Virus record (IMG/VR): IMGVR_UViG_3300008954_002403
Span: 1 to 20,260 of that record
DNA length: 20,260 nt
Reading direction: 5' to 3' (one strand)
DNA from: a virus
Shown here: piece after piece, positions 1,444-19,814 of the stretch
Position numbering within the stretch: position 1 is the first letter of the stretch
Layout of the letters: the number at the start of each line of letters is the position of its first letter
Program-made: the position numbers and the translations under genes
The notes under the pieces: generated by a model
The model's input: only the letters and a program-made list of their open reading frames with translations
What the model was told of the DNA's origin: nothing
The model's database searches: none

Positions 1444-2070
1444 ATGGAAAAAGACAAACTTACAATAGCCCTCAATAGAATTCATGCCCAGCCCGAGTCG
1501 GTGGATGATGGAAGGCGTGGGCCTATAATTGAACCAGATCCAGATCCTGACACTGGTCTAGATCCTGATTGGATAGAAAAAAAATGCAAGGATTGCCAAA
1601 AGATAGTTAAAGATGCTTTATCCTGTGTAAACTGGGAAGAGTGCGAAAGAGCTTGCCGAGCCAATCTTCCCTCGGGATCTCTGGGTGGATGTACGTTTGA
1701 GGATCGACACTCAAAAGATTTATGCAAGCGCGCAACGGCCGCATATTCTTGCTGGACCAATCTCCGTCATTGCAAAAGAACGTGGCAAGAGGCCTGCCCA
1801 AGATCATGTGTTCCTCATCAAAACATGTGCAAAAAGACTGCCCCTCCGGGAAGCTTAGAAACTTGTGAAGAATGTATACAAAACCCGCAAGATCCACTTC
1901 CGGACGAGTATCAACCGGGCGGAGCGTTTGGATGTAGTCTTCAGAACTATTGCTGTACAATGAAACTAGGCCCTAGCGGAGGAAAAGTTGCCAGTTGCCT
2001 ATCGTTTATGGCTCAAAAAGGATGCTGTACACCAGAGGAAAAAGACCCTGGATCGATATACTCAAGATAA
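1444..2070 (+). CDS. Cys-rich protein with N-terminal leader and Asp-Pro linker
   Basis: This 208-residue protein has 20 cysteines. The leader MEKDKLTIALNRIHAQ fits the common amphipathic pattern and ends in the recurrent Ala-Gln. An acidic Asp-Pro linker (EPDPDPDTGLDPD, about residues 30-42) leads into a body with CKDC, CEEC, several WxxxxxC spacings and two CC pairs. The C-terminal part (CSLQNYCC... CLSFMAQKGCC) resembles the end of the protein at 542-1147, so the two appear paralogous in that domain. Ribosome site GAGG lies nine bases before the ATG. The stop TAA overlaps the next ATG (TAATG). No known fold is recognised. Many cysteines in a cytoplasmically made protein point to metal binding or to disulfides formed after release. 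Confidence 0.8.
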   Translation: MEKDKLTIALNRIHAQPESVDDGRRGPIIEPDPDPDTGLDPDWIEKKCKDCQKIVKDALSCVNWEECERACRANLPSGSLGGCTFEDRHSKDLCKRATAAYSCWTNLRHCKRTWQEACPRSCVPHQNMCKKTAPPGSLETCEECIQNPQDPLPDEYQPGGAFGCSLQNYCCTMKLGPSGGKVASCLSFMAQKGCCTPEEKDPGSIYSR

Positions 2071-3026
2071 TGCCTATTCCAACACAAAATTCCGACGAGA
2101 CCAAAAAAGACTTCATGTCCCGCTGCATGAGTAGCGATGTAATGAAGACAGAATACCCGAGCCACAGACAAAGAGTTGCTATATGTTTAAATAAGTCTGA
2201 GGGCGACATCTCGGGGTCCCTGTTAAGAATGGCTGAAAAATTAAAGGCGGGGGCCTTTCCAAAATATTCTGCAAACCCCACTGAGCCTGTCGAATTATTG
2301 GATTGTAAATCTGATGCCATTTTAGCTGCTAAGAAGGAAATGCAAGAGTGTGGAGGCATTCTGCAAAGAAGCGCCCGCAGGCAGTGTATATATAGAATAT
2401 CTAAAAAGGCTTGTAAAAAACACAATAAATGCGCTCTTTCGCTTGGGCTAAATGATCAAGTACTGTACTGTGGAGATTATGCCAATCAAACAGTTAGTTT
2501 ATATAAAGAAGAATTGGCTCCAAAACTTATGAACAAAAAACAAAAATCTAAGGCAATAGTAGACCCCACTGCTTTTGATACTGAAATCAAAATCGGGGAA
2601 CAAACATTTTTTGTAAAAACGGCATCTACGCCTGTTACTCTAAAAAAGGGATTGAAGTATAATACGTCTCTTAAGGAAGACCAAGGGATGCTATTCATGT
2701 TTGATAACGAGCAACCTCACGGAATGTGGATGATGGACACCCCTTTGCGTTTAACTATTGTTTGGATAAATGCAAATCGCACTGTTGTGGATATTCAAGA
2801 GGCAGAACCATGCACAACAAAGCCTTGCAAAGATTACACGCCAAAGGCTCCTGCCATGTACGTTCTTGAAGTAAGATCAGGCTCATTCAAAGGGTCAGTT
2901 GGCGACAAATTGTATTTAAAAACAAAAACCAGCACAACTACCAGAGAATCTAAAAAGATTGTTCTAAATCCCATGACAGATAGATTGCAAGATGCTTTGG
3001 TGGCATTTAAAGGAAAAAAAATATGA
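2070..3026 (+). CDS. Phage protein with N-terminal prohead-type motif and C-terminal DUF192 domain
   Basis: The start at 2070 (TAATG overlap with the upstream stop) is chosen over an in-frame ATG at 1995 because it avoids a 76-base overlap and gives a typical N-terminus. The 318-residue protein has two parts. Residues 8-42 (SDETKKDFMSRCMSSDV then YPSHRQRVAIC) match a short motif common in phage head and maturation proteins, of the type DF..RCM....V....YPD..QR.A.C. A middle region holds several cysteines (CIYRISKKACKKHNKC). Residues about 172-286 match DUF192, with GMLFMF, the WMMDTPL block and YVLEVRSGS near the end. DUF192 proteins are usually small, exported, beta-rich and of unknown function, so its presence as a fusion in a phage is notable. 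A lipoprotein gene follows with a 4-base overlap. Confidence 0.78.
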   Translation: MPIPTQNSDETKKDFMSRCMSSDVMKTEYPSHRQRVAICLNKSEGDISGSLLRMAEKLKAGAFPKYSANPTEPVELLDCKSDAILAAKKEMQECGGILQRSARRQCIYRISKKACKKHNKCALSLGLNDQVLYCGDYANQTVSLYKEELAPKLMNKKQKSKAIVDPTAFDTEIKIGEQTFFVKTASTPVTLKKGLKYNTSLKEDQGMLFMFDNEQPHGMWMMDTPLRLTIVWINANRTVVDIQEAEPCTTKPCKDYTPKAPAMYVLEVRSGSFKGSVGDKLYLKTKTSTTTRESKKIVLNPMTDRLQDALVAFKGKKI

Positions 3027-3310
3027 AACTATTACTATCAACAATTTTAATAATGACAATGGTTGGATGCACAACTACACACGGTAGATTTGACCATAGA
3101 GCAAAAGCCCAAAGAGTTGACCGTCAACATCATAGATCTGGAGACGACCTTGGAAAACAAGTTAACTCTCGAGACAAGTATATGCAGGCTGCGCGCAGAA
3201 TACGAGTAGCTATTGAAGAAGGCAAAATGACTCCCGAAGAGGGCCGAGAAATGATGGAGGCTCTTAGAAAAAGAGTTAAGGGTCGAGGCAAATCAATGGA
3301 TAGAAGATGA
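3023..3310 (+). CDS. Small phage-encoded lipoprotein
   Basis: This 95-residue protein starts MKLLLSTILIMTMVGC. It has a positive N-terminus, a hydrophobic core and a lipobox (MVGC) with the lipidated cysteine at residue 16, a canonical signal for signal peptidase II. The mature part is highly charged and has no other cysteine (RIRVAIEEGKMTPEEGREMM, then a basic end). It overlaps the DUF192 gene and the next gene by ATGA junctions, so translation is probably coupled. Phage lipoproteins include outer-membrane spanins and superinfection-exclusion or receptor-blocking proteins. A spanin role would need an inner-membrane partner with a transmembrane segment, which is not seen in this window. The exact role is unknown. 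Confidence 0.75.
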   Translation: MKLLLSTILIMTMVGCTTTHGRFDHRAKAQRVDRQHHRSGDDLGKQVNSRDKYMQAARRIRVAIEEGKMTPEEGREMMEALRKRVKGRGKSMDRR

Positions 3311-3624
3311 ACAAAAAACTACAAAACTCATTGAATAAACTACTAAAGGCCACGGCCCAAGTCACTCCTCGCATAAGCTGTGGCTGCGATCGTATCAATG
3401 CCATCGAATTCGCAAAAAACCAGTGTGAAGCCATAGAGGCCAATGGTTCAAGATATGTATGGACCGAGAAATATGACAGCACAAATTGTGGCGATCACTG
3501 TTTCGGAACATGTAAGTTCACTGGAACTTGCAAGCATCCCAATCACCCACTACCAGGAGGTGGTGGAAGTTACGTGCAGAGAATGATTACTCCTTGCACC
3601 AGACATTTCAAGCCGCGTAAATAA
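3307..3624 (+). CDS. Short Cys-rich protein with N-terminal leader
   Basis: This 105-residue protein has 8 cysteines and is the last gene of the left plus-strand block. The leader MNKKLQNSLNKLLKATAQV has L5, L9, L12 and L13 on one face and ends in the shared Ala-Gln. The body opens with CGC, carries one HCFGTC cluster followed by FTGTCKHP, and has a Gly-rich turn (LPGGGGSY). Its ATG overlaps the lipoprotein stop (ATGA). Mixed Cys and His spacing (CGDHC, CKHPNH) is compatible with metal binding but no known zinc-binding family is recognised. An intrinsic terminator follows 67 bases after the stop. Confidence 0.78.
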   Translation: MNKKLQNSLNKLLKATAQVTPRISCGCDRINAIEFAKNQCEAIEANGSRYVWTEKYDSTNCGDHCFGTCKFTGTCKHPNHPLPGGGGSYVQRMITPCTRHFKPRK

Positions 3625-3690
3625 TGCTGTATGGAAAAACCATTCAGCGTAGAATGATTTAACTATTGTAAATAAATCAAATATTAGAGG

Positions 3691-3721
3691 CCCCATTCAA
3701 GAAACATTGATTGGGGTTTTT
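3691..3721 (+). terminator. Intrinsic terminator ending the left plus-strand operon
   Basis: CCCCATTCAA and TTGATTGGGG form a 10-pair stem with one T-T mismatch around a six-base loop (GAAACA), followed directly by TTTTT on the plus strand. It sits between convergent genes. The opposite strand lacks a T-run after the stem, so it should act mainly on plus-strand transcripts. The rest of the gap 3625-3731 holds nothing else recognisable. Confidence 0.8.
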
Positions 3722-3731
3722 AATTAATCTA

Positions 3732-4271
3732 CTAATTTTTCCAAGTCTTATTGGTCACAACTCTTCGTATAGTGTCAACCGCAACACTAAACCTTTCAGA
3801 TATACTTTTAATTGTTTTTCCGTGGGTATAGAGCCGTCTAATTTCTTTTACTTTATCCCAGTCAAGCTTAGAGAACCTGCTATTCTCTCCTGAGATGCCA
3901 GACAGGTCTCGGTTCTCATCTTGCTCAGCTTTAGTTGCATACCTTAAGTTTTCAAGAGTGTTATTTTGCCTATTCCTATCGATATGATCTACTGTCATTT
4001 CCTTAGGACACGGACCAACGAAAGCGTCCATTACCATTCTGTGAACAAAATACTTTTTACTTACAGCTCGCCCCGACTCAGTTTTTTGTCTATCAGGGAA
4101 CACAACTACAAATTGATAGAAGTCCCTAGCCTCATACAATTTTAAAACCTTGGCTTTTCTAAAGTATCTTCGGCCCCTGTTAATTACATTCCTAGAAGGC
4201 ATTCTAACCCGACCAAGATTACTAACTTCATAACCTGGCGCTAGGTTGCTTTTTTCCCATATTTCATTCAT
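3732..4271 (-). CDS. Homing endonuclease (NUMOD4 + HNH + C-terminal HTH)
   Basis: This 179-residue free-standing endonuclease has three parts. Residues about 3-30 are a NUMOD4-type DNA-binding motif (WEKSNLAPGYEVSNLGRVR). Residues about 78-120 are an HNH core, with VHRMVMDAF, then VDHIDRNRQNNTLENLRYAT carrying the catalytic His and Asn pattern. Residues about 133-179 are a helix-turn-helix of the kind found at the C-terminus of these enzymes (DKVKEIRRLY ... IKSISERFSV ... VVTNKTWKN). Such enzymes cut intron-less or related alleles and spread with their own gene. It is the last gene of the minus-strand block. Its ATG overlaps the upstream stop by ATGA and it ends in TAG. It has normal length and looks intact. 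Confidence 0.92.
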   Translation of the reverse strand: MNEIWEKSNLAPGYEVSNLGRVRMPSRNVINRGRRYFRKAKVLKLYEARDFYQFVVVFPDRQKTESGRAVSKKYFVHRMVMDAFVGPCPKEMTVDHIDRNRQNNTLENLRYATKAEQDENRDLSGISGENSRFSKLDWDKVKEIRRLYTHGKTIKSISERFSVAVDTIRRVVTNKTWKN

Positions 4272-4900
4272 CTATTCACATCAAATTTGTCTTTAAAGTC
4301 AGTACCTTCTCTGCACCCATCACAGGTGTCTACATCATGAGAATTGCACTTCCATCCTGGTATAAAATTATCTTGACCGTTTCTATCTAGACATTCCCTA
4401 CGAGAAGTCCAAGAACATTCTCCATATGTAGTACCATCATCAACATCAGTATATCTGCATTGAGTGCAACACCGCGTCTGTTCATTTTCCCACTCGTCCG
4501 AACCCGGACAATATTCAAATGCACAATCGGTACCCATTGTAAATGTAGTATTCAAGACCCCTGGACCAGTCGAACTGTAATTTGCGCATTCTTCACTCGT
4601 CATATCACCGCACAAGATAAAAATTGGTTTTCCAGTAGCTACTGAGTATACGCAGCACCTACCTGTCTCGTCAGGTAATACATTGCATACATTCTCTTCT
4701 TCGCAAGGGGTTTCGCCTTCGCCAACTGGCCCAAACCACTCACCCCACAGACGCCTGCAACCCATCTCGCTAGTGACGCGACATTCTCCATGAACACAGC
4801 ACTGACCAAGGATAAAAGGATTTCCTCCGTCTGGAGTTACATAATCCCCTCCTCTCTGGGCTTCTGCAATCTTGTTCAGGATGTTTTTTAAATTATCCAT
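4268..4900 (-). CDS. Cys-rich protein with leader and two G-x-CC modules
   Basis: The start at 4900 is preferred over an ATG at 4927: AGGGTG lies five bases before it, it avoids overlap with the upstream gene, and it places the leader MDNLKNILNKIAEAQ at the N-terminus. The 210 residues contain 20 cysteines. Two modules of the type G-x-CC-x-x-x-x-C...C...C occupy about residues 32-72 and 80-131. The stretch DEWENEQTRCCTQC (about 135-148) matches EWVNEQMGCCEC in the protein encoded at 5643-6689. The leader is almost the same as that of the protein at 18742-19668, on the opposite strand about 14 kb away. No signal peptide or known enzyme motif is seen, and the function is unknown. Confidence 0.8.
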   Translation of the reverse strand: MDNLKNILNKIAEAQRGGDYVTPDGGNPFILGQCCVHGECRVTSEMGCRRLWGEWFGPVGEGETPCEEENVCNVLPDETGRCCVYSVATGKPIFILCGDMTSEECANYSSTGPGVLNTTFTMGTDCAFEYCPGSDEWENEQTRCCTQCRYTDVDDGTTYGECSWTSRRECLDRNGQDNFIPGWKCNSHDVDTCDGCREGTDFKDKFDVNR

Positions 4901-4908
4901 AAAGCACC

Positions 4909-5229
4909 CTATCGCTCTGGCGCACACCTTCCGGTTATCCTAAAGTTTGGTATGACAGGCCCCGCTTCTGAATAGCACGAAAACTTCGACACGCATAGTC
5001 TTGATTTATCACAGCCGTACGGTTCACAAGACTCTCCTAGATTTAGATCCACCCTCGTACAAGTTCCATGCCCGCCCGTTACCCGGCTACACAGTTTTCG
5101 GAACGCCATTATTCTACGTTTATCTATTTCACACATACAATTAGAGTAGGACGGGATATACAGACAATCGCTAACACTTGCCGTACTAGAGGACGAAATC
5201 TTGCTTAGTATTTTGTTTAATTTATCCAC
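4909..5229 (-). CDS. Small Cys-rich protein with leader, GTG start
   Basis: This 106-residue protein has 10 cysteines. The first codon is GTG at 5229, supported by AAGGTG eight bases upstream and by alignment of the leader with its neighbour. Here it reads M-D-K-L-N-K-I-L-S-K-I, followed by a Ser-rich stretch instead of Ala-Gln. It overlaps the upstream gene by eight bases. The first 17 bases after the start region repeat those of the upstream gene, which suggests tandem duplication of the 5' end. The body includes NCMCE and well-spaced single cysteines. It ends in TAG, within the TAGGGTG that also provides the ribosome site of the next gene. No family is recognised. Confidence 0.75.
   Translation of the reverse strand: MDKLNKILSKISSSSTASVSDCLYIPSYSNCMCEIDKRRIMAFRKLCSRVTGGHGTCTRVDLNLGESCEPYGCDKSRLCVSKFSCYSEAGPVIPNFRITGRCAPER
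5212..5228. repeat. 17-bp direct repeat copy 1 (copy 2 at 5624-5640)
   Basis: TTTGTTTAATTTATCCA occurs at 5212-5228 and again at 5624-5640. Each copy covers the first codons of one of two adjacent minus-strand genes (Asp-Lys-Leu-Asn-Lys). Exact identity at codon level between otherwise different proteins suggests recent copying of the leader-coding segment rather than convergence. Confidence 0.8.
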
Positions 5230-5641
5230 CAGATCTACACCTTAAAAAAGCCGCCTCTAACCTACGATATACAGGATCTTCTTTTATGGTTCTAGAATAG
5301 CACTCAGCAAGGCTGCGGCATATATCTCCATCGCACGGATTATTTATAGCCCGATCAAGCTGCCTTTGGCACTTCCTTCTTAGGTACAAATATAAATCGG
5401 CAGCAAGCTGACAACACTGTCTCGGCGTATCACTACCTTTTTCGCCGCAGCTACACATATGTTCTGGGTAGGTGAGTCTTGTTGTATTGAAGCAACTATT
5501 ATGACAGACGGAATCACAAGGCAACCTAGAACACAAGCATGTTGAGTCCTGATAACCTCCACCAGGACCCCTTCTGCAGCAAAACTCGTTACTCCAAGAG
5601 TCTGGGGATATTTGTGACAATGCTTTGTTTAATTTATCCAT
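5222..5641 (-). CDS. Cys-rich protein with leader, 16 cysteines
   Basis: This 139-residue protein starts at an ATG with AAGGTG eight bases upstream, the same ribosome site and spacing as the next gene. The leader M-D-K-L-N-K-A-L-S-Q-I is nearly that of the following gene. The N-terminal half is dense in cysteine (EFCCRRG, CLCSRLPC, CHNSC, MCSCGEKG). The second half is predicted helical (AADLYLYLRRKCQRQLDRAI, then ICRSLAECYSRTI) with widely spaced cysteines that could lock helices together by disulfides. It overlaps the next gene by eight bases and follows the previous stop after one base. No known family is recognised. Confidence 0.78.
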   Translation of the reverse strand: MDKLNKALSQISPDSWSNEFCCRRGPGGGYQDSTCLCSRLPCDSVCHNSCFNTTRLTYPEHMCSCGEKGSDTPRQCCQLAADLYLYLRRKCQRQLDRAINNPCDGDICRSLAECYSRTIKEDPVYRRLEAAFLRCRSGG

Positions 5642-5642
5642 T

Positions 5643-6689
5643 TTATGGACACCTTCTACATCTAAAGAATTTATTTAGACAACGACCATAAACTCCATGG
5701 GTTACCGCTTTACACCAACCCTTTTGCACAGCCTTATTCATATAACTTGGAACATGCCCAGGAGCATAATAATAGTTGGCTCCTATTCTTGACCAAACAG
5801 GATCAAGAGCATCAGAAGCAGGAATTGATGGATCTGGAAGATTTCCATAGTTATTTACACCTAGCTGACGACATGCGCGAGCAGCAGATTGACTTTTAGC
5901 GGGGTCTCTTTCTTCAGGGCAAAAACATAATTTAAACTTTCCATTGGGCGCCCCAGGAACTGCCGGTCCACCCCAACCTCCCTGAAAGGCGCCGTTGTTG
6001 GTTGCTTGTATACATGGGGTTCTTTCATCTCCACTGCAAACTGCTCCTCCAGGATTTGGGTCCTTTCTCCTGTTATACATAACCCAAACAATAGGAAGCA
6101 TGCACTCACTGGCCTCCCTTGGCCCTGCTTCGGCATAAACCAAGCATTCACAGCATCCCATCTGTTCATTGACCCACTCAGCATCACCGGTCGCTTCTCC
6201 TGTCGGCTCGTCACATTCCTCGTCACAAGGCTTGGGCCAATCATCACATGACTTATTGGCGTACCAATACTCGCCCATGTCTTGACAATCATTTTCCCAA
6301 GTCATTGAGCAGTTGTCTTCTCCTCTGCAACAGGCTCCCTTACAGATATTATTTTGACAGCTTGTCCCATCGCCTTTATACTCCCCTCCCCATTGGGAGC
6401 ATCCAGCAGAAGTATACTGTTTGCATTCTTTCTGTTCCTCATTACAGCACGCACCTACCGGACAAACTCCAGCTGCACCACAAGGAACGCCGTCCCCAAG
6501 ATAAACTCCGCCGGTTTTTATGCACTGTTCTTGCGTTACGTCGTTACAGTTACCAAGACTAGAACAACAGGCTCCAGTTTCGTCATTGTCATAATCATCA
6601 TAATCATCGTAATCATCATAATCCGGCTCAGGTATTTGAGCCATGGTTTTTTGTAAAGCGATTCTTAAAATATCTCTATAATTCATCAT
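5643..6689 (-). CDS. Large Cys-rich protein with leader, Asp-Tyr repeat and three GACC modules
   Basis: This 348-residue protein has 32 cysteines. It starts at ATG 6689 (ATGA overlap with the upstream stop) or the adjacent ATG 6686. The second fits the leader and the GGGGA ribosome site slightly better. The leader NYRDILRIALQKTMAQ is followed by an acidic Asp-Tyr repeat (about 23-36). Three tandem modules follow at about 39-76, 79-116 and 118-155. The first two have G-A-C-C, further cysteines, then GG-x-Y-x-GDG-x-x-C; the third is degenerate after GACC. EWVNEQMGCC follows at about 171-180 and is shared with the protein at 4268-4900. The Gly/Pro-rich C-terminal half ends in a basic Cys cluster (RCLNKFFRCRRC). 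It is a paralogue of the gene just upstream. GACC-type modules are usually in extracellular proteins, which suggests a virion or secreted location. Confidence 0.82.
   Translation of the reverse strand: MMNYRDILRIALQKTMAQIPEPDYDDYDDYDDYDNDETGACCSSLGNCNDVTQEQCIKTGGVYLGDGVPCGAAGVCPVGACCNEEQKECKQYTSAGCSQWGGEYKGDGTSCQNNICKGACCRGEDNCSMTWENDCQDMGEYWYANKSCDDWPKPCDEECDEPTGEATGDAEWVNEQMGCCECLVYAEAGPREASECMLPIVWVMYNRRKDPNPGGAVCSGDERTPCIQATNNGAFQGGWGGPAVPGAPNGKFKLCFCPEERDPAKSQSAARACRQLGVNNYGNLPDPSIPASDALDPVWSRIGANYYYAPGHVPSYMNKAVQKGWCKAVTHGVYGRCLNKFFRCRRCP
6589..6623. repeat. Six-base microsatellite coding Asp-Tyr repeat
   Basis: TCATAA-type units, with one variant CGTAAT unit, run through this stretch and encode the D-D-Y-D-D-Y repeat after the leader of the minus-strand protein at 5643-6689. 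A related tract is at 7779-7810. Such tracts can change length by slippage in steps of two residues without breaking the frame. Confidence 0.75.
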
Positions 6690-7870
6690 AAATCCCCATG
6701 GTTTCCAACCATCCTATCCCTACTACAAGATCCGCCCGGACACGGACGCCACATCCAATCAGGCGCACCCGTGGGTCGCACTTGAGGCAGAACTACGTTG
6801 CTATTTGGCGGCCCTCCTTCTCGCGTATCAGAGCAATGTTTACATATGCTTAATCCGTACCTTATATTCCTAGCAAAAATCTCTGACCCAAAATTTCCAG
6901 GAAGGGTGCAGATATCCCAAGGATTACCCCTTCCCGATAGGCTCCCACCCCCCGTACACGTTGTACGCATTATCTTGTTGTTTTCTTGAAAGCAGTCCAT
7001 TGTTTCAGGAGTAGTCACTCGTATGTCATTTGTATTATTGCCCTTACCCAAGCATCCAGCGTCGTTGCGCAACCAACACTTCCTGTGTTCCCACCACCAA
7101 ACATTAAACAGTTGGTCGTGCGTACAGAGGCAACGCTCGCCCTCAGGGTCGCCAGACGATGCCCCTGCTCTTACGCAACTTCCAAAATCAGCTAACCACT
7201 TAGTGGCATAATGCTCGTCTAATTTTTTAAGATAATCCTCAAGAGAGTCGCAATCATTACCGCAGACCTCTTCTGACAGTGCGCACAAGTCCGGCCCGTC
7301 ACCCTTCAATACTACGCAATTTTTACATTCTCCATCGCATCCTCCACTACAAGCCTCTTCACAATTTCGACATTTTGAAGCGCAATTCTCATGGTGTCCT
7401 CCAGATTCCTGACAACATATCTGAGCATTTACACATCTTTTTGCTTGGTTCTCTTTTTGGCATTCGCATAGTTGTTTTGATTGTTCGCATAGCTTGACCA
7501 TGTTGTGTACTGGGCTTGTTTCACGCAAAACTTGCCCTACGCACTGCTCCATATTTTGCTCGTACGAGTTTCCCCCGTCACTATCCCCGTCGTTATCCCC
7601 TATAGAGTCTAAACAGTCCTCAATACAGTCCGTGCATTGCCTGCTTTCACATGGCTCGCATGTGTCCCCACTACAGGAAGTATCATCACCTCGGTAGCTC
7701 CCATGCCTATTGCCGCAATCCTCCTCTGTCCTAATCGAACATATAGTTCCTATACAGCAGGCTCCTGTAGGATCCTCGTCATCATATCCATCATAATCAT
7801 CATAATCATCAATAGCCGCTTTAGCTAAAGTTTTTTGTAATGCATTTCTTAAAATATGATGATAATCCAT
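6686..7870 (-). CDS. Large Cys-rich protein with leader, Asp-Tyr repeat and GACC module (39 cysteines)
   Basis: This 394-residue protein has 39 cysteines. The start at 7870 has AGGAATT nine bases away. The leader MDYHHILRNALQKTLAK and the following Asp-Tyr-Gly repeat (about 21-31) closely match the gene downstream, so the two share a duplicated N-terminus. One GACC module follows (about 36-71: GACCIGTICS ... YRGDDTSC). Next comes a helical, Cys-dense middle part (about 72-200) with CxxC and CxxxC spacings (CTDCIEDC, CRNCEEACSGGCDGEC). The rest is richer in Trp, Gly and Pro. No catalytic motif or signal peptide is seen. The dense CxxC middle could bind metal or form a disulfide rod. The function is unknown. 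Confidence 0.82.
   Translation of the reverse strand: MDYHHILRNALQKTLAKAAIDDYDDYDGYDDEDPTGACCIGTICSIRTEEDCGNRHGSYRGDDTSCSGDTCEPCESRQCTDCIEDCLDSIGDNDGDSDGGNSYEQNMEQCVGQVLRETSPVHNMVKLCEQSKQLCECQKENQAKRCVNAQICCQESGGHHENCASKCRNCEEACSGGCDGECKNCVVLKGDGPDLCALSEEVCGNDCDSLEDYLKKLDEHYATKWLADFGSCVRAGASSGDPEGERCLCTHDQLFNVWWWEHRKCWLRNDAGCLGKGNNTNDIRVTTPETMDCFQENNKIMRTTCTGGGSLSGRGNPWDICTLPGNFGSEIFARNIRYGLSICKHCSDTREGGPPNSNVVLPQVRPTGAPDWMWRPCPGGSCSRDRMVGNHGDL
7779..7810. repeat. Second ATCATA-type microsatellite (Asp-Tyr repeat)
   Basis: TCATCATATCCATCATAATCATCATAATCATC-like units encode the acidic D-D-Y-D-D-Y-D-G-Y repeat after the leader of the protein at 6686-7870. It is homologous in position and composition to the tract at 6589-6623. 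Confidence 0.7.
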
Positions 7871-7873
7871 TTT

Positions 7874-8368
7874 TTAATTCCTAAATAACGAAGGCCACCC
7901 AATACACCGGTCGTTTCCGCCAGGTCCATAATTACAACCGTCAGGTCTCCAGTTTTCAAGTGGATTAGTACATTCTGTTATATAACCCTGCGAACAGTTT
8001 CCATCTGAACAACAAGAGCCTATTGTGCAACATTTATCATGGTGGCAACAGCACTCCTGCGAAACGTGTGGAGATGATCCAGGCGCTACGCACTGTCCTC
8101 CCGGTAAATCTGGAGAACCAGGGGCGCCGCATCCGCACTGGTATTGAGAAAGTGCGTGTTTTTCTTTGCGCCATTTGGATCCATACCGACCACTACAAAC
8201 AGACTGGGTAGTCCAATCATAATTTATAAGGCATTCCTGTGGTTCTATGGTATGTATGTTTTTTTGATGACCAGAGGGAATATTTTCAATTCTCCAACTG
8301 CAACATCCATAAGGCTCTTGTTGAGCTACAGTTAACGATTTTAATATTCTATTGAGTTTACTTTCCAT
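7874..8368 (-). CDS. Cys-rich protein with leader, CCC/CC clusters
   Basis: This 164-residue protein has 18 cysteines and starts at an ATG with AAAGGAA six bases upstream. The leader MESKLNRILKSLTVAQQ has L5, I8, L9 and L12 on one face and the shared Ala-Gln. The body begins YGCCSW. Its C-terminal half carries consecutive clusters (ECCCHHDKCC, then GSCCSDGNC) that resemble a reduced G-x-CC module with added histidines. The His-His between Cys clusters makes metal binding plausible. It is the first cysteine-rich gene after the beta-rich structural genes on this strand. No known family is recognised. Confidence 0.78.
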   Translation of the reverse strand: MESKLNRILKSLTVAQQEPYGCCSWRIENIPSGHQKNIHTIEPQECLINYDWTTQSVCSGRYGSKWRKEKHALSQYQCGCGAPGSPDLPGGQCVAPGSSPHVSQECCCHHDKCCTIGSCCSDGNCSQGYITECTNPLENWRPDGCNYGPGGNDRCIGWPSLFRN

Positions 8369-8382
8369 TAAAAATTCCTTTA

Positions 8383-8739
8383 TTATGATAGAGTCGTTGC
8401 GCTCGTAACAGTAATAGTCCCTGTAGTTATAGTGCCAATATTGCTGTTAGCGTCTTTTATTCGCGTTTCGTGATAATACTCGCCAGGACTCAGTGTCGCG
8501 CTGCTAGTAGCGTCAACAGTTATAGCCAACAGACCCAATGCGGGCGTAGCATTTGTTATTCCACTGCCTAATGTTTTTGTTACCAATGCAGTTGTGGAGT
8601 TAGGGTAGCTTTTTATAACAAACTGCGCCTTTAGCAATCCAGTCGTATTTACCACATCCCCATCTGTATCTTTAACAGTCAAGGATATAACCTTGGTATC
8701 ACCTATATGCATCGAAAAGTCTTGATTTATTGCCGTCAT
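8383..8739 (-). CDS. Ig-like beta-domain tail/baseplate-type protein
   Basis: This 118-residue all-beta protein has no cysteine. The sequence pattern is that of small phage tail or baseplate proteins, including the N-terminal domain of BppU-like proteins: an early D-x-K-V-I-x-L-T-V strand, D-x-D-G-D-V-V-N-T-T-G, an alternating central part and SPGEYYHETRIKDANSNIGTI with the typical G-x-Y-x-H-E and final G-T-I-T-V strand. Such domains commonly sit at the attachment end of receptor-binding or fibre complexes. The ribosome site AAGGAT lies upstream. The match is by pattern, so the exact role in the virion is inferred. Confidence 0.65.
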   Translation of the reverse strand: MTAINQDFSMHIGDTKVISLTVKDTDGDVVNTTGLLKAQFVIKSYPNSTTALVTKTLGSGITNATPALGLLAITVDATSSATLSPGEYYHETRIKDANSNIGTITTGTITVTSATTLS

Positions 8740-8768
8740 TGTTGAAATATCCTTAAAAAATAATACAC

Positions 8769-10079
8769 CTAACTAAGCCTAATTACAGGATTCATTTCCA
8801 GCTTGGCTCGTGGGCCGCCAACTTCTGTAGTCACAGGCGCCCCCAATCCGATAGCGCATATAGATGCGTCAAAAACTCTTCCTATATCCGAATAGGTCTT
8901 AACCTTCATTGTTATCTTTTTGGGTCCTGAAACTGAAGACGAATCCTTTATTCCAGCAAACCCTATTGGATTCTTCTCATTATTGGCTCCCGACACAAAA
9001 ATAGATTCATCTGAAAAACTATCGATAAAATCGGTCTCTAAAGAAGGGTCAGACCAAGTTATATTCATCCAACACCTTTCGTCTGAACCAGTAGTTCCAT
9101 TTGGATTAAATCCCCCATAAGTTAGTATTAACGTTTTGCCGGTAGCAAATGCACTAGCAGCAGCGGTTAACGCATCATCTTGAGGAGGAGTATAGTTGGA
9201 CAGACTTGCCACATTATCAAAGTCTCCAAGAGACAAAAGTTCTGTTGAGCTAGATGACTGGTAATAAGCAGTATGTTGTGTAGAGGCTAGCCTAAGCGCA
9301 AAAACCTTAGCTTGTTTACATGTATTATTGGTCTCTCGTATACTAGAGTCCTTGGTTTTCAAAGAAAGTCTTTTGTATCCCCCGTCAGCAGTCGTTCCAC
9401 CCAAATGAGCTGGATATCCCAAAAACGGAACACTAATAACTCTTTGCATATAGTTTGTTTTATAAGCTCCGGTTCCATTTGACGACTGTATTATTTCTGG
9501 AAATGACTCTATTCCCCTATACTCTAGTTTCTGATATAAACTTACCGAAGTACTATTAATACTAAATTGAGCAGCAGACAATACCAACCAATCCCCAGCC
9601 GTGTGTTTGGTGGCTGGTATATTTATATAGGCCATTTCCTGATAGCTATTCGTATTAACGGTATCCAAAGAGTTTTCAGTGAAGATATAATCCGAACCCG
9701 CAACCAAATTTTGAAGATCCAGACATGAAATTGTTGCTGTTTTTACTGATATTGGATGCCCCGATAAAGCCAGGGCCTGTATCTTTATGGTTTTTCCAGA
9801 CGCCCCAGGCTCAACCATCGTAAAATAACTATATCTAGTTTCATGGGTGCTACTCCTTGAGGTTTCAGAGAACAAAGATCCTGCCAATTCTACCCCGTCA
9901 AACAAGGTCCTAATTTTCGCCACCTCATTTATATCGGTTCCAAATTGCACATTAACTATGACTAGGTATTTCCCCCCAGAAGACAATGCAGACGTTTCAG
10001 CGACGTCTTCATAAACGTCATAAGAAGAACTCGTCCAATCAGCCGTAATCTCTTTATATATACTATTTATATTTGGCAC
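8769..10079 (-). CDS. Three-repeat beta-rich virion protein, possible fibre or receptor-binding protein
   Basis: This 436-residue protein starts with GTG at 10079, one base after the previous stop, with GGAC eight bases upstream. Three diverged copies of a domain of about 110-125 residues can be seen, at about 15-120, 145-265 and 290-413. Each begins with a G-x-W/T-L-V-L/I strand (GGKYLVIVNVQF, AGDWLVLSAAQF, TGKTLILTYGGF). Each ends with a K-x-I/L-x-x-K/Q strand followed by a final A-x-x-x-A-x-x-L strand (VFALRL, ICAIGL). Cysteine is scarce (four), unlike the leader proteins. Composition rich in Ser, Thr and Gly and a beta pattern are typical of tail fibres or capsid decoration. No database family is assigned and the virion position is inferred from neighbours. 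Confidence 0.7.
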   Translation of the reverse strand: MPNINSIYKEITADWTSSSYDVYEDVAETSALSSGGKYLVIVNVQFGTDINEVAKIRTLFDGVELAGSLFSETSRSSTHETRYSYFTMVEPGASGKTIKIQALALSGHPISVKTATISCLDLQNLVAGSDYIFTENSLDTVNTNSYQEMAYINIPATKHTAGDWLVLSAAQFSINSTSVSLYQKLEYRGIESFPEIIQSSNGTGAYKTNYMQRVISVPFLGYPAHLGGTTADGGYKRLSLKTKDSSIRETNNTCKQAKVFALRLASTQHTAYYQSSSSTELLSLGDFDNVASLSNYTPPQDDALTAAASAFATGKTLILTYGGFNPNGTTGSDERCWMNITWSDPSLETDFIDSFSDESIFVSGANNEKNPIGFAGIKDSSSVSGPKKITMKVKTYSDIGRVFDASICAIGLGAPVTTEVGGPRAKLEMNPVIRLS

Positions 10080-10080
10080 A

Positions 10081-10737
10081 TTAAACGTCCATATATCCCT
10101 GCACAGTTACTAAAATACTTTGAGTCGCAGTTCCTAGGCTCGCCTTAATGGCTTGTCCAGTACCGCACACTATTGGCGTAGGCAAAGACATCGCAATACC
10201 TCCGCCGGATTCAGCCACATAGGCATTAAATACGTTAGTAGAATCAGAAAACAGGGAAAATATGGTGCCAGTAGAGCTGGTATTAGATGCGCTTAGTGAG
10301 GTTATATAATATCTATTAGAGGTGGGCGATGGGGCCGTTTTTACGGAAGCTGCCGAATCACTAGAAATAGTACCCAACGCATTAAACATTCTGTCTGGCT
10401 CTGAATGCGGATGCCTAGGAACAACAAACAGGTAGCCGCTAACGTTTTGCTGTAAAGCCAATAGACTGCCGTCGGATTTCTCGCCCAGAGCCGCTGATCC
10501 TATTATTGTTCCCGTACTTGGAGTAGCGCCTTCAGTATACTGTACGCCACTGGGGAATAGCCCGCTTACTGAAATAGTCCCCGTTGCCCCAACCAATCCG
10601 CTGGTTATTACCAGATTTCCGGAAACTGCAGTAGTGCCATCCACATAATGGTGGGGGGTATGCCAAGAATTTCCTGAGTCATATGTTGTTTTTAGACTAT
10701 TATTTGAATTATTACCATCTTTTACTACAATTGCCAT
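10081..10737 (-). CDS. Beta-rich phage structural protein, fibre or decoration type
   Basis: This 218-residue protein is rich in Ser, Gly, Thr and Val. It has a short N-terminal segment (MAIVVKDGNNSNNSLKTTYD) followed by a Gly/Thr-rich spacer and a final domain with repeated short strands (NRYYITSLSASNTSSTGTIF ... SILVTVQGY). Only one cysteine is present. The ATG is preceded by AGGA seven bases away and by the previous stop after one base. This composition, and the linking of short N-terminal segment, spacer and C-terminal beta domain, is common in phage capsid-decoration and fibre proteins. The specific function is not shown by the sequence. Confidence 0.6.
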   Translation of the reverse strand: MAIVVKDGNNSNNSLKTTYDSGNSWHTPHHYVDGTTAVSGNLVITSGLVGATGTISVSGLFPSGVQYTEGATPSTGTIIGSAALGEKSDGSLLALQQNVSGYLFVVPRHPHSEPDRMFNALGTISSDSAASVKTAPSPTSNRYYITSLSASNTSSTGTIFSLFSDSTNVFNAYVAESGGGIAMSLPTPIVCGTGQAIKASLGTATQSILVTVQGYMDV

Positions 10738-10738
10738 T

Positions 10739-11071
10739 TTATAATCCTATCGTTACTATGTGTGCAGAGCTGCAAGTTTGACTAAATATCAGAGTACCGC
10801 AGTGGTCCTCTTCAGATGATGCAGCGTCTGGAATACACGAAAAATCAGAAACCAATGTCTCTTGATATTTAAATACACCTGATACGCTTACTCCCGAAGC
10901 ATAAGTTGACGTTAAAGACTCCACCCTTCTGAAAATTGCAGAAAAGGGAGACAGAATACTGTTCCCGAATATATCGGTATCGGTTTGTTTTGGGCTAGAA
11001 ACAGCAAATACAGAATCCAATGACCTGCTTGGTTCAAAAAAGCCGCTTATACTGCATGACGAATGGGCCAT
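10739..11071 (-). CDS. Small beta-type phage protein of unknown function
   Basis: This 110-residue protein is rich in Ser and has five cysteines (ATG at 11071, GGGTG upstream, stop one base before the next ATG). Segments such as SGFFEPSRSLDSVFAVSS and SLTSTYASGVSVSGVFKYQ suggest beta strands, and the C-terminus has a Cys-x-Thr-Leu-Ile-Phe strand. It lies first among the beta-rich structural genes and just after the small HTH gene. It does not carry the amphipathic leader. It is not recognised as a known family. Compact operon context and ribosome spacing support it as a real gene. Confidence 0.6.
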   Translation of the reverse strand: MAHSSCSISGFFEPSRSLDSVFAVSSPKQTDTDIFGNSILSPFSAIFRRVESLTSTYASGVSVSGVFKYQETLVSDFSCIPDAASSEEDHCGTLIFSQTCSSAHIVTIGL

Positions 11072-11098
11072 ACAGATTTATACACCCAAAAACCAGCT

Positions 11099-11299
11099 CT
11101 AACTAGTTTCCCTTAGAGCGACTACACCACGGCCAGATTTTTTAACCAAACCCAGCCTTCTTCGCATTTCCCTAACCGCCTTCAGCGATTTTCTCAAGGT
11201 GCTAGCCATTTCCTCGTCCTTCATTGTTCCCGAGTTTGTCCTCAGGAAAGACTTCTCCATTTCGGTCCATCTTGACTTTTTTCTTACTGATCTGTTCAT
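11099..11299 (-). CDS. Small helix-turn-helix DNA-binding protein
   Basis: This 66-residue basic protein has a three-helix DNA-binding pattern: RWTEMEKSFLRTN, MKDEEMASTLRKS, KAVREMRRRLGL. The Trp near the start and the D-E-E-M/I-A...L.KS...V...R.RLGL string are typical of phage Myb/HTH-like small proteins. The same string aligns without gaps with the first 45 residues of the protein at 11972-12814. It is the first gene after the divergent control region, the usual place for a transcription regulator of that region, which is an inference. AAAGG lies eight bases before the ATG. Confidence 0.7.
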   Translation of the reverse strand: MNRSVRKKSRWTEMEKSFLRTNSGTMKDEEMASTLRKSLKAVREMRRRLGLVKKSGRGVVALRETS

Positions 11300-11358
11300 T
11301 TTTTATACCTTTACTAGGGTTACTGCTATAATTATAGGAATTTATTAAGGATTTTTGA
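11300..11358. promoter_or_regulatory. Divergent control region with TATAATTATA palindrome
   Basis: This 59-base gap separates the minus-strand block from the right plus-strand block. CTATAATTATAG (11326-11337) is a perfect 12-base palindrome, so TATAAT is presented on both strands: a -10 hexamer in each direction about 27 bases from each ATG. No TTGACA-type -35 box is clear in either direction. AAGGAT is the ribosome site for the gene at 11359, and AAAGG for the gene ending at 11299. It is probably a bidirectional promoter or operator for the flanking HTH or sigma-like proteins. Confidence 0.5.
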
Positions 11359-11967
11359 ATGGCACAAGAAGAGAATTCCGAAAAAACACTTTCGGAAAGT
11401 TTAGATTATATCAACAGTTTTTCGAAAGATCAGATAACCGAGGAGGAGTTATTATCAGTAATTTCTAAAATAGCTACAATACATAGAAATAAAACGTTTT
11501 CTTATTTTTCAGAGGAGGATATAGAGGGCCAAGTTGTGTTAATTTGCTTACAGCAACTAAAGTATTATGAACCTTCAAAAGCAGCTGGAGATACATCTCT
11601 CAACTCTATTGAAAGGTGGTTAAATAGGGTAACCAAAAATAGGCTAGCCAACTACTATAGAGACAATTACAGCTCCGTAAATCAAAGCCACCGGCAAACT
11701 AGGATAAATCTAAACAACTGTATAGATATTGATGTAGTGGACCCCGCGAACAATTCAACCAAAAAACAATCTCCCGACCTAGACCCCTCCTACCAGGGTA
11801 GATTTAATGAGTTTAAAAATTTTGTGGAATCTAAACTAAGCGAAGATTTGCTAGATATATATCATGCGTGCATTGAAGAAGAGAACGTTTCATCCTATTA
11901 TAAGTCAAAGCTGAACCAAGAAATAAGCAAAATACTAGAAGAATGGGAAGAATTAAATAAAGAGTAA
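11359..11967 (+). CDS. Sigma-70 region 2-like protein, candidate phage late sigma factor
   Basis: This 202-residue protein has, at about residues 45-104, a string resembling sigma region 2: an early aromatic patch (SYFSEEDIEGQ), a helix with a repeated LxxLxxY (ICLQQLKYYEPSK) and the end ERWLNRVTKNRLANYYRD. The NRL-N-Y-RD end resembles the DNA-melting part of region 2 (R-N-x-L-N-x-x-R-D). There is no clear region 4 helix-turn-helix; the C-terminal 60 residues are acidic and helical. T4 gp55-type late sigma factors also lack a usual region 4. The gene sits at the head of the plus-strand block next to the control region, as expected for a transcription switch. Another helical DNA-binding protein is possible. 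The call is inference. Confidence 0.5.
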   Translation: MAQEENSEKTLSESLDYINSFSKDQITEEELLSVISKIATIHRNKTFSYFSEEDIEGQVVLICLQQLKYYEPSKAAGDTSLNSIERWLNRVTKNRLANYYRDNYSSVNQSHRQTRINLNNCIDIDVVDPANNSTKKQSPDLDPSYQGRFNEFKNFVESKLSEDLLDIYHACIEEENVSSYYKSKLNQEISKILEEWEELNKE

Positions 11968-11971
11968 TACC

Positions 11972-12814
11972 ATGCCCAAGAGACTAACAGATGCTGATAA
12001 AGATTATATTTTATATAATTATAAGACCATGACGGATAAGGAGATGTCGGAAATTCTTAAGTGTTCTACTAGAACCATAGAAAGGCATAGAAGTTCTTCA
12101 GGCTTAATAAAAAAACACAGAAAAGAACACGTCTCCGAATCCCCCGTGGGCCTAAAGAGCGATGTCGACAAAAGAGAATTTTATAAGAATCAATTCATTC
12201 TTAGCCACCGAGGAAGAAAGCTAAAGGGGCAGGTTTCTAACCGAGAGTGGCCCAATGTGGTTAGCGAATGGTGTGAGTATCATGTACAGCTTGATGATAT
12301 TACGTATACCGAACAAAACACTATCGAACAGATTATAATAATAAAATTGAGAATGGACAGGAACCAAACTGATTATAAAGACGCGTCCGCCTTACGTGAT
12401 TCGCTAATGGATGATATTGGCATGGATGATATTAAAGATTTAGATTTAACCAATCCAGACGAAGCGGCAATATACGAAAAAATATACTCGGCCTCTATTA
12501 AAATGAGCGACTTAAATAAAGAATACAGGGATATGTTGGACAAGTCAACAAAATTACAAGAAACCTTGAATGTAACGAGAAAACAAAGAGAAGAAAAAGG
12601 CAGAGTGGGCGCAGATACTTTTTTTGATCTTTGTAGAAAACTAGAATCCCAGAAGGCTCGCGATGAAGAGGGCAGAATGGCGGAGCTGTTAAGAATGGCT
12701 ACGGAGAAAAATTCAGGAAACTTACGAGAAGCCATAGAATATATGGATGGAGAAATAGCGCCTCAGCTTTTAGATGAAGAAACTATCAATTTAATGGAGA
12801 AAAAAAATGAATAA
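11972..12814 (+). CDS. HTH plus coiled-coil protein, possible small terminase subunit
   Basis: This 280-residue protein opens with a helix-turn-helix (about residues 3-48: DADKDYILYNY, MTDKEMSEIL, RTIERHRSSSGLIKK), closely related to the small HTH protein encoded at 11099-11299. It continues with a Tyr/Trp-containing region (REFYKNQFILS, REWPNVVSEW). The rest is a long charged helical or coiled-coil stretch (about 150-230: MSDLNKEYRDMLDKS, VTRKQREEKGR). This order of N-terminal DNA binding and central oligomerising helices fits small terminase subunits, and the large terminase lies downstream in the same block, but dehydratase and nuclease genes separate them. No specific small-terminase motif is certain. 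It overlaps the next gene by eight bases. Confidence 0.5.
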   Translation: MPKRLTDADKDYILYNYKTMTDKEMSEILKCSTRTIERHRSSSGLIKKHRKEHVSESPVGLKSDVDKREFYKNQFILSHRGRKLKGQVSNREWPNVVSEWCEYHVQLDDITYTEQNTIEQIIIIKLRMDRNQTDYKDASALRDSLMDDIGMDDIKDLDLTNPDEAAIYEKIYSASIKMSDLNKEYRDMLDKSTKLQETLNVTRKQREEKGRVGADTFFDLCRKLESQKARDEEGRMAELLRMATEKNSGNLREAIEYMDGEIAPQLLDEETINLMEKKNE

Positions 12815-13793
12815 AAAAGCAATTGTTACAGGATGCCCAGGGCAGGACGCTTCGTATTTATGCGAGCTTTTATTAGACAAAAATTATGACGTTTACGGTG
12901 TATCCAGAAGATCCACTCGAGAGAACGATAATATGCATAATTCTGAAGGTCGCCATAACTATACGGCAGTGACCATGGATGTCACAGACGCTAGCGGTAT
13001 CGCCAATCTTATCAAAGATATTCAGCCTGATGAATATTATAATTTGGCCGCCATGTCTCATGTTGGCCAAAGCTTTAAAGAACCTAGTTCGACCCTTCTA
13101 ACAAACGGATATGCTGTGTCATGTGCGCTTGAGGGAATTAGATCTTATGCACCTAAATGCAAATTTTACCAAGCGTCTACGTCGGAACTGTATGGAAAAG
13201 TTGGGGAAGGGGAATCATTAAATGAGGACTCCCCATTTAAACCCAGAAGCCCTTACGGCGCTGCTAAACTTTACGCCCATAATATGGTGTCTGTTTATAG
13301 AGACTCATATGACTTACATGCTTCTTGTGGAATACTATTTAATCATGAAAGCGAGAGAAGAGGTCTTAACTTTGTTACTAGGAAAATCACCCATGGAGTA
13401 TCTAGGGTAAAAAGCGGGCTAGACAGGCATGTTGTCCTAGGAAACATTGACGCAATAAGAGACTGGGGTCATGCCAAAGACTATGTCCAAGGAATGTGGC
13501 TAATGCTTCAACAAGACAGGCCCGACGACTACGTTTTAGCAACAGGAAAGACGGCGTCTGTCAGAGAGGCTCTTTCCTATGTTTGTGAATTGGCAGAATT
13601 AAATATGGATGAGGTTTATAAAATAAATCCGAAATTTATGCGACCTGCCGAGGTTCCGTATTTATGCGGAGACCCGTCAAAAGCTCAGACTATTTTGGGT
13701 TGGAATCCCGATTACGACTGGAAAGACCTGTTGGCAGCCATGTATAAAAACGATTTAAAATCTGCTGGTCGGGAGGTGTATACATATAGGTAG
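12807..13793 (+). CDS. gmd: GDP-mannose 4,6-dehydratase
   Basis: The enzyme converts GDP-D-mannose to GDP-4-dehydro-6-deoxy-D-mannose, the first step to GDP-fucose, GDP-rhamnose or perosamine, using bound NADP. The 328 residues match the extended SDR fold. The Rossmann start TGCPGQDASYL is at 8-18. Catalytic Thr-Ser-Glu in ASTSELYG is at 122-128, with Tyr149 and Lys153 in YGAAK. The family signature LGNIDAIRDWGHAKDYV is at 210-226. Family length is usually 320-370, so it is intact. The Rossmann loop has Cys-Pro where Ile/Thr is usual. GGAG lies eight bases before the ATG, inside the upstream gene. In a phage it may alter host surface glycans or provide sugar for virion glycosylation. Its placing inside the packaging block is unusual. 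The stop is TAG. Confidence 0.93.
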   Translation: MNKKAIVTGCPGQDASYLCELLLDKNYDVYGVSRRSTRENDNMHNSEGRHNYTAVTMDVTDASGIANLIKDIQPDEYYNLAAMSHVGQSFKEPSSTLLTNGYAVSCALEGIRSYAPKCKFYQASTSELYGKVGEGESLNEDSPFKPRSPYGAAKLYAHNMVSVYRDSYDLHASCGILFNHESERRGLNFVTRKITHGVSRVKSGLDRHVVLGNIDAIRDWGHAKDYVQGMWLMLQQDRPDDYVLATGKTASVREALSYVCELAELNMDEVYKINPKFMRPAEVPYLCGDPSKAQTILGWNPDYDWKDLLAAMYKNDLKSAGREVYTYR

Positions 13794-13805
13794 GAAACGC
13801 ATATT
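13792..13805 (+). promoter_or_regulatory. Possible ribosome site and ATT start for the HNH nuclease
   Basis: AGGAAA at 13792-13797 is followed five bases later by ATT at 13803. The reading frame of the HNH nuclease is open from the TAG of the dehydratase at 13791. The codons between carry HNH-typical sequence (RRTPLYHNFRKSV) upstream of the ATG at 13863, which itself has no ribosome site. An ATT start is very rare in bacteria (infC is the known example), so this needs proof. Confidence 0.35.
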
Positions 13806-13862
13806 AGAAGCCGGGACCCTCAAAGACGAACTCCTTTATACCATAATTTTCGCAAATCGGTT

Positions 13863-14222
13863 ATGGCGCGGGACGATTACTCTTGTCAATATCCCGGATG
13901 CAAATGCAAAACCGGTTTACAGGTCCATCACATTAAAAAGTTTTCCGAGTACGCTAGGTTGCGAACTGAGGTGTTTAATGGTATAACATTATGTAGAACG
14001 CACCACGATTTAGTTACAGGGAAAGAGGAAAAATACGAGGAGATGTTCTTTAAAGTAGTAGCATCAAAAAAGGGTTATGTCGGAATCAAGAAAAAAAATA
14101 AAAATGCCAAGCGCAAGAACAAGAAGAAATTCCGGACTGCACAAGGCTCGAAGCGCAATAAAAAACGCAATAGGCGTATCGGTGGTAGTAGACACCCGAG
14201 AAAAGGATCCATGGACATTTGA
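13863..14222 (+). CDS. HNH endonuclease (packaging-associated), N-terminus probably extends upstream
   Basis: The HNH core runs MARDDYSCQYPGC, LQVHHIKKF, then ITLCRTHHDL, with the Cys pairs, His-His-Ile and final His of the phage HNH group. The ATG at 13863 lacks a ribosome site and cuts off conserved residues RRTPLYHNFRKSV. The gene therefore probably begins upstream, perhaps at ATT 13803, giving 139 residues in place of 119. The C-terminal 45 residues are a low-complexity basic tail that overlaps the ERCC4 gene. HNH proteins beside terminase genes are known components of phage packaging motors, working with the large terminase at the DNA cutting step. Here the gene is 438 bases upstream of the terminase, with one nuclease between, so a packaging role is likely but not proven. 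A homing role is the alternative. Confidence 0.82.
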   Translation: MARDDYSCQYPGCKCKTGLQVHHIKKFSEYARLRTEVFNGITLCRTHHDLVTGKEEKYEEMFFKVVASKKGYVGIKKKNKNAKRKNKKKFRTAQGSKRNKKRNRRIGGSRHPRKGSMDI

Positions 14223-14667
14223 AGGAGAGCTGCCCTCTAATTTACACATTAAAAAAACATATTCCGACAAGCTGGAGGCTGGGGATTATACTATAGTTGG
14301 ATACGACCTAGAAGGTGATGACTATGGAGTAGTGATAGAGAGAAAAAATTCCCTAGAGGAATTCATAGGAAATATTGGTAGAGGATGGGATAGGTTTAAG
14401 GTGGAGTTAGAAAAGATGTCAAAATATCGAATTGCGGCAATTATTATAGAGGACGATTTAAAAGATTCGTTTGCTAAATACAAATCCAAAAAGGGGTATG
14501 GAAAATATTTTAACGTTAGCCCTAACTTTATAGTAAAACGTATTTCAGAAATCAAATCTCGATATGGAGTCTCTACATATTTTATGTCCAATAAATACTT
14601 TGCCCAAAGATTAGCCTGCAATCTTTTTAGAGATGCGGTCATACTTGATGGAGAATTGGATGTCTAA
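14077..14667 (+). CDS. ERCC4-type nuclease
   Basis: This 196-residue protein has an ERCC4 (XPF/MUS81-type) nuclease domain from about residue 33. The metal-binding pattern is visible: VVVDTREK (D39, R41, E42), LEAGDY (69-71) and VIERK (88-90), followed by SLEEFIGNIGRGWDRF. These enzymes cut branched or looped DNA. A phage may use one to resolve forks or joints before packaging. The first 32 residues are basic, and they overlap the HNH gene by 146 bases in another frame. The start at 14077 is preceded by AAAGGG at an unusually short distance, and ATG 14104 is an alternative. The terminase start overlaps its end by eight bases, so the three genes are coupled. Confidence 0.85.
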   Translation: MSESRKKIKMPSARTRRNSGLHKARSAIKNAIGVSVVVDTREKDPWTFEGELPSNLHIKKTYSDKLEAGDYTIVGYDLEGDDYGVVIERKNSLEEFIGNIGRGWDRFKVELEKMSKYRIAAIIIEDDLKDSFAKYKSKKGYGKYFNVSPNFIVKRISEIKSRYGVSTYFMSNKYFAQRLACNLFRDAVILDGELDV

Positions 14668-16690: not shown

Positions 16691-16708
16691 ACAACGGTGT
16701 ATTTACAA

Positions 16709-16724
16709 TTGAACCGCAGTTCAA
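16709..16724. promoter_or_regulatory. Small hairpin between terminase and portal genes
   Basis: TTGAAC-CGCA-GTTCAA is a perfect six-pair inverted repeat in the 46-base terminase-portal gap, just before the portal ribosome site AGGAAG. No T-run follows, so it is not an intrinsic terminator. It could be an operator or an mRNA fold that tunes portal translation. Confidence 0.45.
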
Positions 16725-16736
16725 CTAGGAAGAAAA

Positions 16737-19668: not shown

Positions 19669-19694
19669 TGTATTTAACTACGAAGAGTTATATT

Positions 19695-19814
19695 ATGTGT
19701 AATTGTGGAAAAAATAAAAATATAAAAAGAAGCCCCCTGTCTCCCAGGGTCAACACAAAAACAAGCTTAAAAAAGCTATCAAGCGCCCTAAATAAGTTCC
19801 GTGAGAAAAGATGA
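19695..19814 (+). CDS. 39-residue basic peptide with CxC start and leader-like C-terminus
   Basis: This is a very short gene, supported by ATGA coupling to the next gene and GAAGAG nine bases upstream. It starts MCNCGKNKN, has a basic middle with PLSPRV, and ends SLKKLSSALNKFREKR. The last part resembles the amphipathic leader (LxxLxxALNK) found at the N-terminus of the cysteine-rich proteins, but here at the C-terminus. It has two cysteines. No known function. It could be an accessory or anti-tag peptide of that family, which is inference. Confidence 0.55.
   Translation: MCNCGKNKNIKRSPLSPRVNTKTSLKKLSSALNKFREKR

Follow-up and report, generated by a model that had tools for sequence, protein, structure and literature searches.

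An amphipathic N-terminal leader on cysteine-rich proteins of uncultured tailed phages: an exchangeable module that may target proteins to the phage head

The closest described counterparts of the genes considered here encode the internal proteins of phage T4, which have diverse bodies and of which, in the published account, the tag alone is conserved (PMC3012670). When we compared the T4 genes ipII and ipIII, their DNA proved to be alike from about 16 bases upstream of the start codon to about codon 11 and different thereafter. Giant phages offer a second point of reference: in SPN3US and phiKZ, which possess a prohead protease, the propeptides of ejection proteins are thought to guide cargo into the prohead, and these propeptides are described as mostly long, frequently exceeding 100 residues, with cleavage at a defined motif (PMC5694885). 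A third is provided by the virion-associated peptidoglycan hydrolases of tailed phages. Here we analyze positions 1 to 20,260 of the IMG/VR virus record IMGVR_UViG_3300008954_002403, a stretch of 20,260 nucleotides hereafter called the window, together with related phage contigs. As in T4 ipI, ipII, and ipIII, where the DNA of the ribosome-binding site and tag is alike in neighboring genes and the bodies are unrelated, the proteins in question carry a short N-terminal tag on otherwise unrelated bodies. The differences from T4 are considerable, however: tagged genes are more numerous, with ten in the 20-kb window; the bodies are cysteine-rich or resemble wall hydrolases; the leader genes of the window overlap or abut and lack promoters of their own; and packaging is here a proposed role. 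Moreover, because a search of the T4 record with a profile built from 13 leaders (A4) returns no match at E-values up to 10, there is no sequence kinship with the T4 tag. Like the propeptides of SPN3US and phiKZ, the leaders are N-terminal segments presumed to guide cargo, but they span only about 12-20 residues and no motif was seen in them. Relatives of the window phage also encode leader-bearing Hydrolase_2-like and lysozyme-like proteins, which recall the virion-associated peptidoglycan hydrolases but, unlike these, have a swappable tag in common with cysteine-rich proteins.

Ten genes of the window begin with an amphipathic leader, and nearly all of their bodies are rich in cysteine (3.9-11.5% of residues, with nine proteins at 7.6% or more, versus 0-3.6% in 11 other genes). 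The median helical moment of the leaders is 0.66 (n = 24) compared with 0.38 for other N-termini (n = 531), a difference that is partly circular, as the leaders were picked for their hydrophobic spacing. Four of the genes lie on the plus strand: NEFNEILNRMTRGQ (542-1147) and DKLTIALNRIHAQ (1444-2070), both cysteine-rich; MNKKLQNSLNKLLKATAQ (3307-3624), whose slot in the nearest relative, L002, is taken by two genes in which this leader precedes different bodies; and MKKIVRILNKIAEKAQ (18742-19668), which overlaps the 3′ end of the portal gene and is missing from L002. The remaining six are on the minus strand. Besides the two genes denoted A and B below, these are the cysteine-rich MDNLKNILNKIAEAQ (4268-4900), NYRDILRIALQKTMAQ (5643-6689), DYHHILRNALQKTLAK (6686-7870), and MESKLNRILKSLTVAQ (7874-8368). 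NYRDILRIALQKTMAQ contains an acidic DDYDDY run and part of its body is related to L002:3053-3736, although tblastn against 50,697 phage records recovered no relatives of the body; for DYHHILRNALQKTLAK, the leader alone was matched in L002. These two neighboring genes have both the leader and the DDYDDY run in common (6564-6686 and 7754-7870; 126 bp at 70% identity). We also considered whether leaders furnish the upstream gene with out-of-frame stops. The two remaining frames run into a stop within 60 nt in each of the ten leader genes, but the same holds for 8 of 11 other genes, and the property is therefore not special.

The initial annotation drew attention to an exact 17-base repeat over the start codons, one GTG and one ATG, of two neighboring genes, and this repeat is indeed present at both sites. 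Its minus-strand sequence, TGGATAAATTAAACAAA, consists of the last two bases of the start codon (TG) and the codons GAT AAA TTA AAC AAA (D-K-L-N-K). The copies cover, in register, the start codon and codons 2-6 of gene A (repeat at 5624-5640; gene at 5222-5641, minus strand, with an ATG start at 5641) and of gene B (repeat at 5212-5228; gene at 4909-5229, minus strand, with a GTG start at 5229). Gene A encodes the leader MDKLNKALSQIS and a cysteine-rich body (139 aa, 11.5% cysteine), and gene B the leader MDKLNKILSKIS and another such body (106 aa, 9.4% cysteine); the TAA stop codon of gene A falls within the start region of gene B. An imperfect third copy, differing at three positions, covers the start of the leader gene that follows (4883-4899, minus strand). 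Not mentioned previously is a Shine-Dalgarno-like AAGGTGT on the minus strand, located at the same distance, 7 nt, upstream of the ATG of gene A (5649-5655) and of the GTG of gene B (5237-5243, inside the 3′ end of gene A). The window contains three direct repeats of at least 15 bases, namely, the 17-mer, one of 15 bp, and one of 20 bp (6589/7791), the last corresponding to Asp/Tyr-coding repeats in two other leader genes, the DDYDDY-bearing pair NYRDILRIALQKTMAQ and DYHHILRNALQKTLAK. None of 60 dinucleotide shuffles of the window yielded a direct repeat of 17 bases or longer, and hence the 17-mer is not a product of chance. In agreement with the description of a common leader start in otherwise different proteins, the BLASTP match between A and B is confined to the leader (6 of 6 residues, E = 0.49). 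The difference between GTG and ATG is without visible meaning. A related-locus search found no relatives of either body, nor did tblastn of the gene A body against the 50,697 phage records.

The nearest relative, L002 (contig IMGVR_UViG_3300046532_004698, with L039 denoting the full contig), has a terminase 87% identical to that of the window and a backbone that is 82% identical. Between the window and L002/L039, DNA identity is 78-85% across the aligned blocks 2151-3010, 3625-4271, 8384-18740, and 19695-19947, and the two phages differ exactly at the leader genes. Of the ten, eight fall, along with one other small ORF (3023-3310), in the unaligned intervals 3011-3624, 4272-8383, and 18741-19694; the remaining two, at 542 and 1444, precede position 2151, where the alignment starts. 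The comparison of related phages for gene gain and loss, proposed in the initial annotation, thus places such changes at the leader cassettes. The alignment breaks off two bases ahead of the leader gene at 18742, the start of which lies within the last codons of the portal gene. Inside the unaligned intervals, blastn matches are restricted to leader-coding ends (5577-5641, 6636-6673, and 7827-7872). The first of these matches is that of gene A, which, intact in the window, persists in L002 as a relic (L002:2993-3057) that reads [I]DKLNKILSQISQGPWSHEFC and reaches a stop after 21 codons; ATT replaces the start codon, with no ATG, and the five codons of the repeat are spelled as in gene A. Gene B is missing from L002. 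Elsewhere in that contig, the leader of the gene at 2168-2959 holds an 18-bp tandem duplication (AAATTAAACCTTACAAAA twice), which represents slippage inside a leader.

The identity of the DNA had been taken to indicate recent copying of the leader-coding end. Recombinational copying in this phage, whether from A to B or from B to A, would account for the 17 identical bases in register and for the equally spaced AAGGTGT, and copying of this kind does occur in a relative (L020, see below). However, the identity ends at codon 6, whereas the likeness of the leaders continues to codon 12, and the residues shared beyond the repeat (codons 8, 9, 11, and 12) are each spelled with different codons. Given equal residues, the five-codon agreement has a probability of 0.015 under the all-codon usage of the window (A and B left out) and of 0.057 under the usage in the first 12 codons of other genes. 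Because that run was selected for being a run, the fairer test considers every residue that the two leaders share in codons 2-12; of these nine, five have equal codons versus 3.31 or 4.09 expected (P = 0.188 with all-codon usage and 0.377 with first-12-codon usage); the excess of synonymous identity that characterizes recently duplicated gene ends is thus not seen. Furthermore, A and B are only 40% identical in the 40 nt upstream and 52% in the first 54 nt. Over the first 36 nt, gene A and the L002 relic have 31 equal positions, gene B and the relic 26, and A and B 24. Since A and B are less alike than A and the relic, any copying between them probably predates the split of the window and L002 phages, unless gene B evolved faster. 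The codon spelling of gene A is old, as the relic has the same five codons. We therefore reject recent copying, which codon spelling and the relic together render improbable. The initial annotation had itself set against its reading the possibility that both genes are old; the relic bears this out for gene A, gene B being without a relative in L002. Even less credence is due to the notion that constraint on translation starts (low structure, A-rich codons, Shine-Dalgarno spacing), rather than common descent of the leaders, maintains the identity. AAA, GAT, and TTA are enriched among start-proximal codons of the window, which raises the chance of the five-codon match as given above, but the peptide likeness reaches codon 12 and extends to eight further genes with other spellings, so that a leader exists at the protein level whatever the constraint on the DNA. 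The explanation that we hold to be probable, with moderate confidence, is that A and B belong to an amphipathic-leader family, that their 17-base likeness is old rather than the outcome of a recent copy, and that the leader is modular and most likely targets the head. The repeat would then represent the conserved translation start and first leader codons of the two genes, held at the protein level and aided by A/T-rich codon use near the start.

Judging from DNA comparisons among relatives, the recruitment of leaders as tags is real in this lineage: the copying mechanism proposed in the initial annotation, although not borne out for A and B, finds its counterpart in relatives in which near-identical promoter and leader DNA precedes unrelated bodies. 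In L020, two adjacent genes are 95.8% identical over 119 bp that reach from the upstream DNA through codon 18, followed by unrelated bodies, and the upstream part includes a hairpin resembling a terminator and a sequence that matches a sigma-70-like promoter (11/12). The codons of these leaders agree in excess (60 of 90 equal versus 34.8 expected); such an excess is lacking in the window as a whole (57 of 152 shared residues across all leader-gene pairs versus 55.8 expected), the pair with the clearest excess being 5643-6689/6686-7870 (7 of 9 versus 3.0). Between L028 and L030, the preceding 1.9 kb is 93% identical and divergence sets in at leader codon 17. Generally, a terminator, promoter, and 17-codon leader that are 90-98% identical stand ahead of unrelated bodies in the relatives, with an abrupt break at the leader end that is not found between A and B. 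We compared 40 nt upstream plus the leader for the set of genes with an MSLE leader (22 genes in 10 of 12 loci, 231 pairs). At least 80% identity was found in 23 pairs, the bodies of which are less than 35% identical in 14 cases, 60% or more in 5, and in between in 4. In the 14 pairs with unlike bodies, which are not independent and are estimated to reflect about five events, the break falls at nt 50-73 from the ATG in 13 and at nt 35 in one. By this comparison, promoter and leader DNA has been duplicated and joined to new bodies in the relatives, with the break at the leader end, so that cargo genes come, go, and are exchanged, whereas the tag persists.

Exchange of cassettes might be driven by an HNH/NUMOD4-type endonuclease. 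A gene of this type borders the leader-gene cluster in five phages: that of the window (3732-4271, minus strand; NUMOD4 + HNH_3), identified by family match, and those at L002:1629-2171, L010:1849-2217, L011:1767-2141, and L048:728-1249, assigned by sequence likeness. Other genes of the window include one for a DUF192 protein (1995-3026, the true start probably being the ATG at 2073), one with a weak match to phrog_1740, a family of phage sigma factors for RNA polymerase (11359-11967), and one resembling, by eye, a nucleotide-sugar dehydratase (12807-13793), which is retained between regulator-like genes and the terminase in the relatives examined.

Leaders extend beyond the known clusters. 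At E-values up to 1, profile A4 has matches in 10 of 12 records. Five matches outside the clusters were inspected, four of them at ORF starts and one internal to an ORF. Three of the ORF-start matches are tandem genes beginning with NNDNLKRVLNKIS or NNNLKRILNKIS, whereas the fourth is a cysteine-rich protein beginning with MNKLNVILDKL. A cell-wall-hydrolase-like protein is encoded in 10 of 20 records and, as assessed by eye, has a leader-like start in each; in L010 it starts with MKNLNKVLSKLQLAM, close to the leaders of A and B. Matches of these proteins to Pfam Hydrolase_2 are slightly below the cut-off of that family, and a sequence search of the PDB with the hydrolase returned nothing significant. 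One slot (L020:4785-5630/L030:4514-5605) is occupied by either a lysozyme-like or an opposite-strand Hydrolase_2-like gene, both with leader-like starts. Literature searches for earlier accounts of comparable leaders in other phages listed nothing on the present lineage, a result that by no means proves that none exist, and a host search found no relative of the terminase among cellular genome contigs.

By analogy with the capsid-targeting sequence of T4, the most likely role of the tag is to bring its proteins into the head ahead of packaging, and a head protease may clip it. The window ends ahead of the candidate protease gene, and the evidence for the enzyme comes from relatives, in which a protein encoded between the portal and major capsid genes has an invariant His and Ser. 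Its predicted structure has a mean pLDDT of 60.8 (about 80 in the core), and 10 among 50 listed BFVD matches are named as prohead, head, or capsid maturation protease or phage-like protease, the remaining listed ones being unnamed or, for example, tape measure protein or ferritin. Sequence and fold searches of the PDB gave no significant match, the Pfam S77/S78 protease models had no match in the records of 10 relatives, and tblastn found no relatives in the 50,697 phage records. The BFVD matches and the model suggest that the relatives encode a head-protease-like protein. No constant cleavage residue or motif (AQ, AA) was found in the leaders by eye. Mimicry of a scaffold helix by the leader was tried as well and dismissed: in a profile search of 671 proteins, the scaffold segment scored 2.1 bits, not above other internal matches.

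It is conceivable, albeit unlikely, that the leader is instead an export or membrane-targeting signal. The cysteine content of the leader proteins, set out above, makes their bodies likely to be disulfide-bonded, and leader-like N-termini also occur on the Hydrolase_2-like and lysozyme-like proteins; both cysteine-rich bodies and wall hydrolases would then act outside the cytoplasm. However, the leaders have no Sec-type hydrophobic core, their genes adjoin those for the terminase, portal, and other structural-looking proteins, and the cassette design fits that of the T4 internal proteins; besides, packaging followed by ejection would deliver such proteins too. The joining of a leader to a cysteine-rich body is also reminiscent of RiPP precursors, in which the leader directs modification of a cysteine-rich core, and leader copying is common among RiPP families. 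Usual RiPP precursors are nevertheless far shorter than the leader proteins, which have 105-394 aa; similar leaders are found on wall hydrolases, and no modification enzyme was detected among the proteins scanned, which represent part of the genes, so that we regard this interpretation as very remote. Targeting to the head remains the preferred function: tagged proteins would enter the head before packaging.

More tentatively, and with somewhat less than even confidence, we propose that these uncultured, unclassified tailed phages have a tag of their own, unrelated in sequence to that of T4, and duplicate and trade units consisting of a promoter, a 17-codon tag, a variable cargo, and a terminator, with breaks where the tag ends; the products would be a changing set of effectors, often cysteine-rich, that are packed into the head and injected. 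The injected internal proteins of T4 are described as including counters to host defenses (PMC3012670, PMC9391042). The positions of the cassette breaks show a route by which a tag can be placed on a new protein. Should the leader serve in packaging, sequence alone would mark those uncharacterized phage proteins that are injected at the start of infection.
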